Shown here: piece by piece, positions 2,976 through 14,954 of the stretch | Layout: each line of letters starts with the position of its first letter | How positions within the stretch are numbered: position 1 is the first letter of the stretch | Origin: Eggerthellaceae bacterium | Lineage (GTDB): Bacteria; Actinomycetota; Coriobacteriia; Coriobacteriales; Eggerthellaceae | NCBI GenBank assembly: GCA_022644775.1 | Contig: JALCHN010000003.1 | Location: 19,787 to 83,786, forward strand | DNA: 64,000 bases | Direction of reading: 5' to 3' | Notes under the pieces: model-generated | What the model saw: the letters and a program-made list of their open reading frames with translations, nothing else | What the model was told of the DNA's origin: nothing | Databases searched by the model: none | Program-made: the position numbers and the translations under genes

Positions 2976-3013
2976 AGAGGCCCTGCAGTAGGGATGCCTC
3001 CTGCAGGGCCTCT
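2976..3013. terminator. Terminator-like hairpin between convergent birA and dut
   Basis: Perfect 13-bp inverted repeat AGAGGCCCTGCAG...CTGCAGGGCCTCT with 12-nt loop; no clear U tract. Confidence 0.55.
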
Positions 3014-3119
3014 TGAGGATTGGATGCATCTCAAGCACTCTTGCATGCTACTAAGACGGTCTGTTTCGTAGCTTTACATAACATATATTATCAATACAAC
3101 ATGTTGAAGAGCGGGGGAG

Positions 3120-3554
3120 CTACTTCACTCCGCTGCTGCCGAAGCCGCCGGTGCCGCGCTCGGTTTCGTCGAGCTCTGTCTTCTCTACCAGTTGGAGCTG
3201 TTCGACCTTGATAACGACGAGCTGGGCGATGCGATCGCCCGCTTTGATTTCGATAGCTTCATGCGGGTCGAGATTGATGAGGATCACCTTCAGCTCGCCG
3301 CGGTAGCCGCTGTCGATGAGCCCCGGCGCATTGGCGATTGACAGGCCCTGCTTGATGGCCGATCCGCTGCGGGGCGTCACGAAGCCCGCATACCCTTCGG
3401 GAAGGCCGATGGCAATGCCCGTGGGCACGAGCTTGCGCTCGAACGGCTTGAGAACCACGTCTTCGGTCGACGACAGGTCGATGCCGGCGTCGCCAGCATA
3501 GGCGTTCTTCGGGATGACGGCGTTGGGCGCGAGTTTCTTTACGGGCAGTTCCAC
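3120..3554 (-). CDS. dut: dUTP diphosphatase
   Basis: Trimeric dUTPase motifs: DAGIDLSS, PRSGSAIKQGLSIANAPGLIDSGYRGE, GDRIAQLVV, ERGTGGFGSSG. Confidence 0.96.
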   Translation of the reverse strand: MELPVKKLAPNAVIPKNAYAGDAGIDLSSTEDVVLKPFERKLVPTGIAIGLPEGYAGFVTPRSGSAIKQGLSIANAPGLIDSGYRGELKVILINLDPHEAIEIKAGDRIAQLVVIKVEQLQLVEKTELDETERGTGGFGSSGVK

Positions 3555-3998
3555 TTAGAGTCCTTTCAGGGCGTTGCTGAATTCTTCCACGTTCTTGAAG
3601 TCCTTGTAGACGCTTGCGAAGCGGATGTAGGCCACTTCGTCGAGGTCCTTCAGGCGCTTGAGCACCATGTCGCCCAGGTCCTTCGATTTGATCTCGGTAA
3701 AGTTTCTATTGCGCAACTCCGACTCGAGATCCTCGACGAGATTGTTGATCTGCTCGGGCGTGATATGGCGTTTGGCGCAGGCTATGTAGATGCCGCGAAT
3801 CAGCTTGTCGCGATGGTAGACCTCTGAGGTGCCATCGGACTTCAAGACGATGAGCGGGCTTTCTCCGAGACGTTCGTAGGTGGTGAAACGACGCCCGCAG
3901 GACAGGCATTCGCGCCGTCTGCGAATGACGGTGCCATCTTCGGACGGACGGGAATCGACGACTTTGGAAACCTTGTTTCCGCAACTGGGACAGCGCAT
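3555..3998 (-). CDS. nrdR: Transcriptional repressor NrdR
   Basis: MRCPSCGNKVSKVVDSRPSEDGTVIRRRRECLSCGRRFTTYER zinc ribbon plus ATP-cone. Confidence 0.97.
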   Translation of the reverse strand: MRCPSCGNKVSKVVDSRPSEDGTVIRRRRECLSCGRRFTTYERLGESPLIVLKSDGTSEVYHRDKLIRGIYIACAKRHITPEQINNLVEDLESELRNRNFTEIKSKDLGDMVLKRLKDLDEVAYIRFASVYKDFKNVEEFSNALKGL

Positions 3999-4085
3999 GA
4001 CGCTCCTCTCGTTTGGTGAGACGAGCGTACCATATGCGGATGGCGTCTGGGTGCGACCGCTTTTGCCCGTGGCAGAATTGGTGCG

Positions 4086-4403
4086 CTAGACGAGGACTCC
4101 CAGCGCGAGAATGACGGCCGTCACGAGAGTGTAGCCAGCGCCGATGCCGATAATCTGGCCCTTCGATGCCGTATGGACGGGGCTGCCGGCAAGCGTGCCG
4201 TCGGTAAGGTCGCGGAAGAGCTGCGGCGTCTGCTTGCGCGTGCGAGGACGGGCGGATTGCACGCTTTGACGTGTCGGGGCGGGATGCGCGGCGGCACGCG
4301 CTTCGTCGAAGGAGATGACGCGGCCCCCTTCGCGATTGCAAGAACGAGCCGGAGCGAGCGCTGCGCTGCCTTCGGTGGGATAAGCTGCGGTTTCGTACCT
4401 CAT
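4086..4403 (-). CDS. Small single-TM membrane protein, divergent from lexA; putative SOS-induced protein
   Basis: ORF with GAAAGGG ribosome-binding site before MRYETAAYPTEG...; C-terminal hydrophobic helix IIGIGAGYTLVTAVILALGVLV; LexA-type box in putative promoter spacer. Confidence 0.8.
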   Translation of the reverse strand: MRYETAAYPTEGSAALAPARSCNREGGRVISFDEARAAAHPAPTRQSVQSARPRTRKQTPQLFRDLTDGTLAGSPVHTASKGQIIGIGAGYTLVTAVILALGVLV

Positions 4404-4422
4404 GATGACCCTTTCGATGTTC

Positions 4423-4450
4423 TTGCATAGAACCTTTGTTCGTGTATACT
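4423..4450 (+). promoter_or_regulatory. Putative lexA promoter: TTGCAT-N16-TATACT with LexA box in spacer
   Basis: AGAACCTTTGTTCG at 4429-4442 matches CGAAC-N4-GTTCG at 9/10 positions. Confidence 0.7.
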
Positions 4451-4456
4451 CTAAAT

Positions 4457-4476
4457 CGAACATACGTACTTGTCAA
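4457..4476 (-). promoter_or_regulatory. LexA-type box and -35 element of divergent promoter for the small membrane protein
   Basis: CGAACATACGTACT (4457-4470) directly next to TTGACA on the minus strand (4471-4476). Confidence 0.6.
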
Positions 4477-4484
4477 TGAAAAAA

Positions 4485-4498
4485 CGAACACCCGTTCG
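4485..4498. promoter_or_regulatory. LexA operator, perfect palindromic half-sites
   Basis: CGAACACCCGTTCG immediately upstream of the lexA ribosome-binding site. Confidence 0.85.
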
Positions 4499-4511
4499 AG
4501 TGGAGGATCAC

Positions 4512-5153
4512 ATGGCAAAGGCACTCACCAAACGCCAGCAGGCGGTGCTCGACTGCATCGAGGAGTTCATAGCCGAAAAGGGCTATGGGCCCACGGTGCG
4601 CGAACTCTGCGACCGCATGCATCTTTCGTCTCCCTCCACCGTGCACGTGCACCTGCATGCGCTCGAAGAAAAGGGGCTCATTCACCGCGATCCTTTGAAA
4701 TCGCGCTCCATCACTCTCGCTCATCCGCATGAAGAGGACCCCGTGGGCGGCGAGGACTACTCCCCCGCCTTCGGTTCGCTTGTGTCCCTTCCGCTTGTGG
4801 GCAACGTGGCCGCCGGCACTCCCCTGCTCGCCGAAGAGAACATCACCGAAACGATTAGCCTGCCCACCGAAATCGTGGGCGATGCGGCGTCGTTTCTCCT
4901 TTCCGTGCACGGCGAGTCGATGATCGAAGCCGGCATCAACGACGGCGACTACATCGTCGTCAAAGAGCAGCCCACGGCCACCAATGGCGACATCGTCGTG
5001 GCGCTCGTCGACGACGGTGCCACGGTCAAGCGGTTCTACAAGGAAGACGACCATATTCGCCTGCAGCCCGAGAACTCCTCGATGGAGCCCATCATCGTTC
5101 CTGACTGCACGATCGTGGGCAAAGTGGTGGCCCTCTTCCGCCGTGTGGTTTAG
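4512..5153 (+). CDS. lexA: SOS repressor LexA
   Basis: MAKALTKRQQAVLDCIEEFIAEKGYGPTVRELCDRMHLSSPSTVHVHLHALEEKGLI and S24 peptidase VHGESMIEAGINDGDYIVV; start after GGAGGATCAC. Confidence 0.97.
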   Translation: MAKALTKRQQAVLDCIEEFIAEKGYGPTVRELCDRMHLSSPSTVHVHLHALEEKGLIHRDPLKSRSITLAHPHEEDPVGGEDYSPAFGSLVSLPLVGNVAAGTPLLAEENITETISLPTEIVGDAASFLLSVHGESMIEAGINDGDYIVVKEQPTATNGDIVVALVDDGATVKRFYKEDDHIRLQPENSSMEPIIVPDCTIVGKVVALFRRVV

Positions 5154-5175
5154 CCTTTCGGTATTGTCCCCCTGC

Positions 5176-5217
5176 AGAGCGGACCCCGTTCCCGACTGTG
5201 GGAACGGGGTCCGCTCT
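5176..5217. terminator. Strong hairpin between convergent lexA and hflX
   Basis: Perfect 18-bp stem AGAGCGGACCCCGTTCCC/GGGAACGGGGTCCGCTCT with 6-nt loop. Confidence 0.7.
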
Positions 5218-5279
5218 TCGTTATCGGTACTGGGTGGTCTCGGTGAGGGCGCGGTACGGCGGTCGCTTTAGCTTTATCT

Positions 5280-6593
5280 TTAGCTTTCGTCCGCTTCGAG
5301 CGCGTAGGCGCCGAAGGCAGGTGCGTAGGCGGCCGGCACGCGCATTTCGATGGTCGTCCCTTCCGCATCGTAAGCTTCGCGCGAGATGAAGCAGCGCTGA
5401 TGGGCAAGGGATACCAAATCGCCGCGGTCGAAGGGGATCTTCACGGTGAGGTGGGTGTCCTGGGCGGCTACGAGGCGCACGAGCTGGTCGATGAGGTCGT
5501 CGATCCCCTCACCGGTGCGCGCCGAAATGAACAGCGCATGGGGATAGCGGGCCGTGAGGGCGTCCAGCTCGTCTGGGGTGAGGGCGTCGATCTTGTTGAA
5601 GACCGTCACGCGGCTGATCTTGCCGGCGTCGATCTGAGTGAGCACGTCTTCCACCGCTGCGATCTGATGCTCGTATTCGGGCGTCGAGGCGTCGACGATG
5701 TGCAGGATCGCGTCGGCCTCGCGGATCTCTTCGAGCGTGCTCTTGAAGGATTCCACAAGCGTGGTGGGTAGCTTCTGGATGAAGCCGACCGTGTCGGTGA
5801 GCGTGACCTCGCGGCCTTCGGGCAGCGTGAGCTTGCGGGTGGTGGAATCGAGCGTCGCGAAGAGCTTGTCGTAGCTCAGGACGTTGGCATCGGTGAGGCG
5901 GTTGAGCAGGCTCGATTTCCCGGCGTTGGTGTAGCCGGCGAGGGCGATGCGGATCATCCCGCTCGCCGTGCGGCTCTGCCGTTGCAGGGACCGATTGCGG
6001 TCGAGCTCTGCCAGCTCGCGCTTGATCGAGGTGATGCGCTTGCGCACGAGCCGGCGGTCGACTTCCAGCTGGCTTTCGCCTTCACCGAAACGGCTGCCCA
6101 CGCCGCCGCCCATTCGGTTGCTGGCCAGGTGGGCCCACATGCCGCGCAGGCGTGGAAGCAGGTACTGGTTCTGGGCCAAGCGCACCTGCAGGCGGCCTTC
6201 GCGCGTGTGGGCGTGCAGGGCGAAGATGTCGAGGATGAGGGCCGTCCGGTCTATGATCTTCACGTTGCGGTCGACGCATTTCTCCAGGTTCGACTGCTGC
6301 GAGGGCGTAAGCTCGTCGTCGAATATCACGACGTCGGCCCCGAGCGACCGGCACAGGTCGGCAAGCTCCTGGGCCTTGCCCGTACCGATGAAGGTGGCCG
6401 GGTTGGGCGTGGCGAGCTTCTGGGTGATACGTGCGACGGGTTGGGCGCCCGCCGTATCGGCAAGGCGCCCTAATTCGGCGAGGGTTTCTTCCAGGGGCCA
6501 TTCCGAATGGGGAAACTCCACGCCGACGAGAATCGCTTTTTCGGGTTCTTCCGCCGTGTCGTGCAGCGGGAACCGGTTGAGGTTTTTAGACAA
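5280..6593 (-). CDS. hflX: GTPase HflX
   Basis: GYTNAGKSSLLNRLT, DTVGFIQKLPTTLVESFKSTLEE, RLRGMWAHL, GEGESQLE motifs. Confidence 0.96.
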   Translation of the reverse strand: MSKNLNRFPLHDTAEEPEKAILVGVEFPHSEWPLEETLAELGRLADTAGAQPVARITQKLATPNPATFIGTGKAQELADLCRSLGADVVIFDDELTPSQQSNLEKCVDRNVKIIDRTALILDIFALHAHTREGRLQVRLAQNQYLLPRLRGMWAHLASNRMGGGVGSRFGEGESQLEVDRRLVRKRITSIKRELAELDRNRSLQRQSRTASGMIRIALAGYTNAGKSSLLNRLTDANVLSYDKLFATLDSTTRKLTLPEGREVTLTDTVGFIQKLPTTLVESFKSTLEEIREADAILHIVDASTPEYEHQIAAVEDVLTQIDAGKISRVTVFNKIDALTPDELDALTARYPHALFISARTGEGIDDLIDQLVRLVAAQDTHLTVKIPFDRGDLVSLAHQRCFISREAYDAEGTTIEMRVPAAYAPAFGAYALEADES

Positions 6594-13829: not shown

Positions 13830-14894
13830 CTACTTGCGCTTGGCCGGTTTGGGGTCGGGATGGGTTTCGGTCGCGACTGAAGAGCCGCTCGGTTCGGGGA
13901 TGGCGAGCTCGTATTCCTCGCGCACCTTGCGCTCGAGCTCGTCGCGCAGCTCGGGATTGTCTTCGAGGGTGCGCTTGGCCGCTTCCCTGCCCTGGCCCAG
14001 GCGCTCTTCCCCATACGTGTACCAAGCGCCGCTTTTCTTTGCGATGCCGCATTCCACGGCCATATCCAATATGCAGCCAGTTTTGGAAATGCCCTCGCCG
14101 TACATGAGGTCGAATTCGGCCTGGCGGAAGGGAGGGGCCACCTTGTTTTTCACGACCTTGGCGCGCACTCGGTTGCCCACCGTCTCGCCGTTCTGCTTGA
14201 CGTAGTCGCAGCGGCGGACGTCGATGCGCACCGACGAGAAGAACTTCAGGGCACGGCCGCCCGTGGTGGTTTCGGGGTTGCCGAACATGACGCCGATCTT
14301 CTCGCGTAGCTGGTTGATGAAGATGCAGGTGGTGTTCGAGCGGGACAGGGAGCCGGCGAGCTTGCGCAGAGCCTGGCTCATGAGGCGGGCCTGAAGGCCC
14401 ACCGTCGTGTCGCCGATCTCGCCTTCGATTTCGGCGCGGGGCACCAAAGCGGCGACCGAGTCGATGACAACGGCGTCGATCGCGCCGCTGCGCACGAGCA
14501 TGTCGCAGATTTCGAGCGCCTGCTCGCCCGTATCGGGCTGGCTGATGAGCAGGTCGTCGACGTCGACGCCGAGTTTGGCGGCGTAGACTGGGTCGAGGGC
14601 GTGCTCTGCGTCGATGAAGGCGACGATGCCGCCCAGGGCCTGGGCTTCGGCCAGGATGTGAAGGGCCAGGGTGGTTTTGCCGCTCGATTCAGGGCCGTAG
14701 ATTTCGACGATGCGCCCGCGCGGGACGCCGCCGATGCCCAGGGCCGCATCGAGCGACAGGGCCCCCGTGGGGATGACCCCGATTTCCATATGCTCGTTAT
14801 CGCCGAGCTTCATGATCGACCCGCGCCCGAACTTCTTTTCGATCTGGTCGAGCGTGGGCTTGAGCGTCTTCTCTTTATCTGCCGCCTGCGACAT
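13830..14894 (-). CDS. recA: Recombinase A
   Basis: [16 protein letters not shown] Walker [35 protein letters not shown]. Confidence 0.98.
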
Positions 14895-14926: not shown

Positions 14927-14954
14927 ATTATACGAACAGATGTTTGCCTGTCAA
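14927..14954 (-). promoter_or_regulatory. recA promoter with LexA box in the spacer
   Basis: On minus strand TTGACA-N16-TATAAT; spacer contains CAAACATCTGTTCG (one mismatch to CGAAC-N4-GTTCG). Confidence 0.88.

Follow-up and report, generated by a model that had tools for sequence, protein, structure and literature searches.

The window analysed here, a stretch of 64,000 nucleotides from an Eggerthellaceae bacterium, carries lexA on the plus strand at 4512–5153 (TIGR00498 at 229.5 bits, the cut-off being 110.95) and, adjoining it and diverging from it on the minus strand at 4086–4403, a gene for a 105-aa protein that starts with ATG and is preceded by a ribosome-binding site, AAAGGG, read from the sequence 5 nt before the start codon (4409–4414, minus strand). 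On the same strand, 87 bp downstream of this small gene, lies nrdR (3555–3998, minus strand), which encodes the Zn_ribbon_NrdR and ATP-cone domains and possibly shares a transcript with it. The order lexA < > gene-nrdR puts the 105-aa gene in the slot of ChiZ: in Mycobacterium tuberculosis, Rv2719c, nrdR and Rv2717c form a LexA-controlled operon (PMC4181829). Of 124 Eggerthellaceae, 97 have an nrdR on the same strand after the slot, as have 57 of 74 others. A search of Rfam over positions 3000–6000 of the window gave no match.

The 105-aa ORF is a real gene, because its product is 62% identical to the protein of Hugonella massiliensis (L025), the dN/dS of this pair is about 0.14, a rough ratio given that dS is saturated, and the differences between the two genes by codon position are 30/22/61. 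H. massiliensis is the nearest named relative of the source genome and belongs to the same genus, the LexA proteins being 91–92% identical. Searches of Pfam and NCBIfam with the 105-aa protein returned no match at E ≤ 1 and no LysM, the domain for which the first-pass annotation had proposed a scan, and searches of PHROGs and the PDB returned nothing significant. That annotation's description of the locus, a 105-aa ORF divergent from lexA with a good ribosome-binding site, one C-terminal transmembrane (TM) helix and no LysM, is borne out by the reading frame, by these profile searches and by hydropathy.

The protein is predicted to be a tail-anchored membrane protein with three conserved motifs ahead of its helix, all encoded on the minus strand. 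The N-terminal cytoplasmic motif GSAAL (residues 12–16, 4356–4370) has the family form G[TS][SA]AL, in which G12, A15 and L16 are invariant in the family alignment; the second cytoplasmic motif, VISF (residues 29–32, 4308–4319; family form (I/V)IxFP), is a possible counterpart of LxVIEGG in LysM-bearing relatives; and the pre-membrane motif RDLTDGTLAG (residues 64–73, 4185–4214) has the family form L[RK]xGxxxG. The TM helix itself spans residues 81–104 (4092–4163, minus strand) and includes at its cytoplasmic end the KxQ of the core [RK]x[QE]. The best 19-residue Kyte-Doolittle window, residues 87–105, scores 2.24, and an AlphaFold model places a helix at 81–104 at low confidence (mean pLDDT 52.9).

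Three LexA boxes, scored by their mismatches to CGAACNNNNGTTCG, lie between the two divergent genes, with starts exactly 28 bp apart (4429, 4457 and 4485): box A, AGAACCTTTGTTCG, at 4429–4442 with one mismatch; box B, CGAACATACGTACT, at 4457–4470 with two; and box C, CGAACACCCGTTCG, a perfect match at 4485–4498 in the predicted lexA leader. Box B falls within the spacer of the promoter that serves the 105-aa gene, TTGACA-N17-TAGAGT (4448–4476, minus strand), a sequence that occurs once as an exact match in the window against 0.01 expected from shuffling and is exactly as the first-pass annotation had given it. The box that was named there is box B, correctly placed in the promoter, which is the weakest of the three and would mean little by itself, as matches with two mismatches are common (83 in the window against 54 expected); the two better boxes, A and C, had been missed, and the interval proposed for the whole feature, 4086–4476, is right for gene and promoter but leaves box C outside. 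A putative lexA promoter, TTGCAT-N16-TATACT (4423–4450, plus strand), can be read from the sequence with box A in its spacer; its –10 element and that of the promoter on the other strand overlap. Minus-strand terminator matches at 4485–4502 were rejected, being the palindrome of box C.

These boxes are a general feature of the 130 Eggerthellaceae lexA loci counted (from 127 genomes, three of which were fetched twice): at least two boxes are present at 123 and at least three at 96, and a box with no more than one mismatch is found at 120, against 0.55 expected from dinucleotide shuffles. Of 126 genomes, 110 show the 28-bp spacing again, and 108 have a box inside the spacer of a promoter that faces the small gene and agrees with the consensus at 9 or more of 12 bases. 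The same box is found in the promoter spacer of recA (13830–14894 of the window, minus strand; promoter TTGACA-N16-TATAAT, box 14933–14946), and a perfect one stands directly upstream of a gene for a Y-family polymerase (L234). As the boxes are conserved and recur at recA and at the polymerase gene, their sequence makes LexA control of the 105-aa gene very likely, and its product is almost certainly an SOS-regulated membrane protein. The slot of YneA, Rv2719c and DivS, in which the ORF had been placed at first pass, is thus filled by a LysM-less membrane protein with the sequence marks of LexA control.

The orientation proposed at first pass, a topology opposite to that of the known inhibitors, is not supported. 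In 75 Eggerthellaceae relatives, the 15 residues preceding the TM helix hold 168 K/R and 63 D/E, and after it there are one K/R and one D/E in total. Because of this charge bias, the N-terminus is predicted to lie inside, as in YneA, ChiZ and SosA. The helix stands at the C-terminus because the protein has no extracytoplasmic part, and the 78 Eggerthellaceae rows selected by motif all have only 0–5 residues after the TM window.

Outside the Eggerthellaceae, the same slot usually holds a longer protein. A LysM-bearing protein diverges from lexA at 65 of 76 non-Eggerthellaceae loci and at none of the 130 Eggerthellaceae loci; Pfam LysM scored above its cut-off in all three of the LysM-bearing relatives tested, and a search of the source genome assembly (95% complete) for LysM proteins gave none. 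The slot proteins of Atopobiaceae and Coriobacteriaceae resemble the 105-aa protein in their N-terminal cytoplasmic motif, GTxAL, and their one TM helix, and they differ from it in the 71–85 residues, including a C-terminal LysM, that follow the TM window in the motif-bearing proteins. Profile-profile comparison of the Eggerthellaceae and LysM-bearing sets gave E = 6.5e-9 over 20 N-terminal columns, against 0.37 for a reversed control. Since both sets had been selected by GTxAL, which makes this comparison partly circular, the motif counts were repeated on proteins selected by LysM: G[TSN]xA[LVI] occurs in 14 of these 29 (0.86 expected) and a VIEGG-like second motif in 16 (0.27 expected), and the Bacillota among them have neither. 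The TM helix matches that of the LysM-bearing relatives weakly (profile probability 21.8%, E = 1e-3), with HMM scores only partly above those of shuffled sequences. When 400 genomes of the class were searched with a profile of 12 rows, 76 gave a match, of which 72 are Eggerthellaceae, and such whole-genome searches in relatives lead to the place beside lexA. Because the LysM-bearing slot proteins of the sister families share its N-terminal cytoplasmic motif, the 105-aa protein belongs, by sequence comparison, to a lexA-linked family that includes LysM-bearing Coriobacteriales proteins, as a branch that lacks LysM. The earlier description of a positional analogue from an undescribed family was therefore too weak, the motif being common to the LysM-bearing slot relatives; no curated model for the family was found.

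Two LysM-less proteins outside the Eggerthellaceae, both encoded between lexA and nrdR, seem to have arisen independently: that of L248 (1374–1670) is 99 aa long, and that of L250 (997–1374) keeps the LysM-type second motif as GFRVIDG. Apparently these are separate losses of LysM. On a LexA tree, the sampled Eggerthellaceae form one clade (100/99) and the LysM-less label needs three changes, with long branches that make the positions of L248 and L250 less sure. Loss is the simpler reading of these changes, on the distribution of the domain, because LysM occurs in Bacillota, Atopobiaceae and Coriobacteriaceae.

Within the Eggerthellaceae, the reduction appears to go further. When 127 genomes were classed, with five motif-less proteins (L135, L146, L164, L183 and L188) assigned by eye, 90 had the motif with the TM helix, eight a motif-less cytoplasmic part with the helix, and 11, in two genera, a TM-only ORF of 23–34 aa; in 17 the slot held no recognised gene, and in one it fell at a contig end. 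A TM-ending ORF thus stands beside lexA in 109 of 126 informative genomes, in keeping with the proposal of the first-pass annotation, for which presence in relatives mattered, and in the other 17 of the 126 the function is dispensable or replaced, or the gene was missed. In genus g2 (L140, L150, L151, L158, L159, L161, L165 and L167), all eight scorable genomes have an ORF of 23 aa, for example MARYEFPIAFALSTIASFVIFFA, which is hardly more than one TM helix and has its ribosome-binding site, promoter and LexA boxes in place. In genus g32 (L184, L187 and L190), the TM-only ORFs in the same slot are 33–34 aa long and score 14.7–23.0 bits against the TM core profile, above all shuffles (top 10.1). 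The 23-aa forms score 1.9–7.1 bits, overlapping reversed sequences (1.1–4.3), and since this match does not go beyond shuffles, their descent rests on position. An ORF of 23 aa is short enough that gene callers may overlook it.

This shortening across the family, together with the 17 genomes in which no gene was recognised, is what one would expect if a former YneA/ChiZ gene were in decay here, its LysM lost and its remainder drifting. Such decay is highly improbable: dN/dS is 0.10–0.47 in ten pairs, and even the 23-aa forms, in which variable columns by codon position number 12/5/20, show a pN/pS of 0.26. Start codon, ribosome-binding site and promoter are also kept, and a length of exactly 23 codons is shared by eight genomes of one genus.

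The single helices of 23–34 aa also bring to mind TisB, a small SOS membrane peptide that forms pores through an amphipathic helix. If the small SOS-controlled membrane protein at this locus acted in the same manner, it would damp the membrane potential and promote dormancy and would leave the divisome unblocked. This is rather unlikely, as the core helix of the family has no charged residues, unlike that of an amphipathic pore former, and most members are longer, with conserved motifs in their cytoplasmic part; moreover, LysM, which binds the wall in YneA and ChiZ, is present in the versions of the sister families, and the gene occupies the slot of ChiZ.

We consider that the 105-aa gene is probably repressed by LexA and its product a division inhibitor of the YneA/ChiZ kind, the kind linked to lexA; the protein would have lost its LysM and now be tail-anchored. 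Boxes in the two promoter spacers, purifying selection and the ChiZ slot favour this at the level of sequence, and inhibition of division as such, plausible as the first-pass annotation had suggested it, seems a good deal more probable than its absence. A LexA-controlled membrane protein could also have another target, such as a different enzyme of the envelope or something connected with nrdR, and not inhibit division: the function is deduced from position and relatives, nrdR follows the small gene and, where that gene is lacking, can come straight after the region of LexA boxes. The sequence links of the protein lead to LysM-bearing proteins in the slot of a lexA-linked inhibitor, which makes a different target unlikely.

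Among described systems, ChiZ (Rv2719c) of M. tuberculosis is nearest in gene arrangement, its LexA-controlled gene also being followed by nrdR (PMC4181829); its topology is like that of YneA (PMC13396833), and unlike the 105-aa protein it carries LysM, without which, according to a review, it appears able to function (PMC3989709). YneA of Bacillus subtilis is likewise small and lexA-linked with one TM helix and the C-terminus outside, SOS induction being a prediction in the present case, but it has a required outer LysM (PMC13396833), whereas the 105-aa protein has nothing outside and has instead a cytoplasmic N-terminus with conserved motifs. SosA of Staphylococcus aureus and DivS of Corynebacterium glutamicum are lexA-linked, SOS-controlled proteins with a single TM helix and no LysM (PMC6851548); the likeness noted here is one of arrangement, and the outer C-terminal part that SosA needs (PMC6851548) is missing in the 105-aa protein. 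Closest in size to the forms of 23–34 aa is SidA of Caulobacter, an SOS-induced membrane protein of 29 aa that inhibits division through FtsW (PMC4211646), although it comes from another phylum, shows no expected homology and lacks the long cytoplasmic part of most Eggerthellaceae forms.

In the mechanism that we envisage for the preferred reading, a division inhibitor without LysM, DNA damage would lead RecA to trigger cleavage of LexA and the 105-aa gene would be expressed; the TM helix would insert with its N-terminus inside and dock on a TM helix of the septal peptidoglycan synthase, keeping the synthase inactive until repair is finished. As there is no outer domain, any inhibition would go through the TM helix itself, the cytoplasmic motifs or both, as in SidA, and not through binding of glycan by LysM as in B. 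subtilis YneA. The best candidate for the target is FtsW, a tentative assignment to which we would give somewhat less than an even chance; the TM helix of YneA suffices for midcell localisation and for interaction with FtsW, through TM7 (PMC13396833). A more doubtful step, though one worth entertaining, is that the TM helix alone is the whole inhibitory effector in Eggerthellaceae and blocks the septal synthase with no wall-binding domain; LysM and then the cytoplasmic part would have been shed, leaving in one genus a single-helix SOS inhibitor of 23 aa opposite lexA. Counted against an inhibitor are the behaviour of B. subtilis YneA, whose LysM does the blocking and which without it localises and does not inhibit division (PMC13396833), the outer part that SosA requires, the weak TM profile match to the LysM-bearing relatives and the 17 genomes in which the gene was not recognised.

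Should division indeed be inhibited, an SOS division checkpoint would extend to a large gut-dwelling family of Actinomycetota, in which the literature searched describes none: a search for work on LexA in Coriobacteriia found none, and papers naming LexA, SOS and Eggerthella were on other subjects by their titles. The family also offers a natural deletion series, from LysM with TM helix and motif, through TM helix with motif, to the TM helix only, which bears on how septal wall synthesis is stopped and by which part of such an inhibitor. This series makes the requirement for LysM testable, the domain being essential in B. subtilis and LysM-less forms having arisen three times or more on the LexA tree.

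A further observation concerns nrdR. At the loci L178, L196, L197, L198, L201, L202, L203, L204, L205, L209 and L223, where the small gene was not found, nrdR starts 127–300 nt from lexA and immediately follows the divergent region of LexA boxes, and there nrdR itself may be under the control of LexA.
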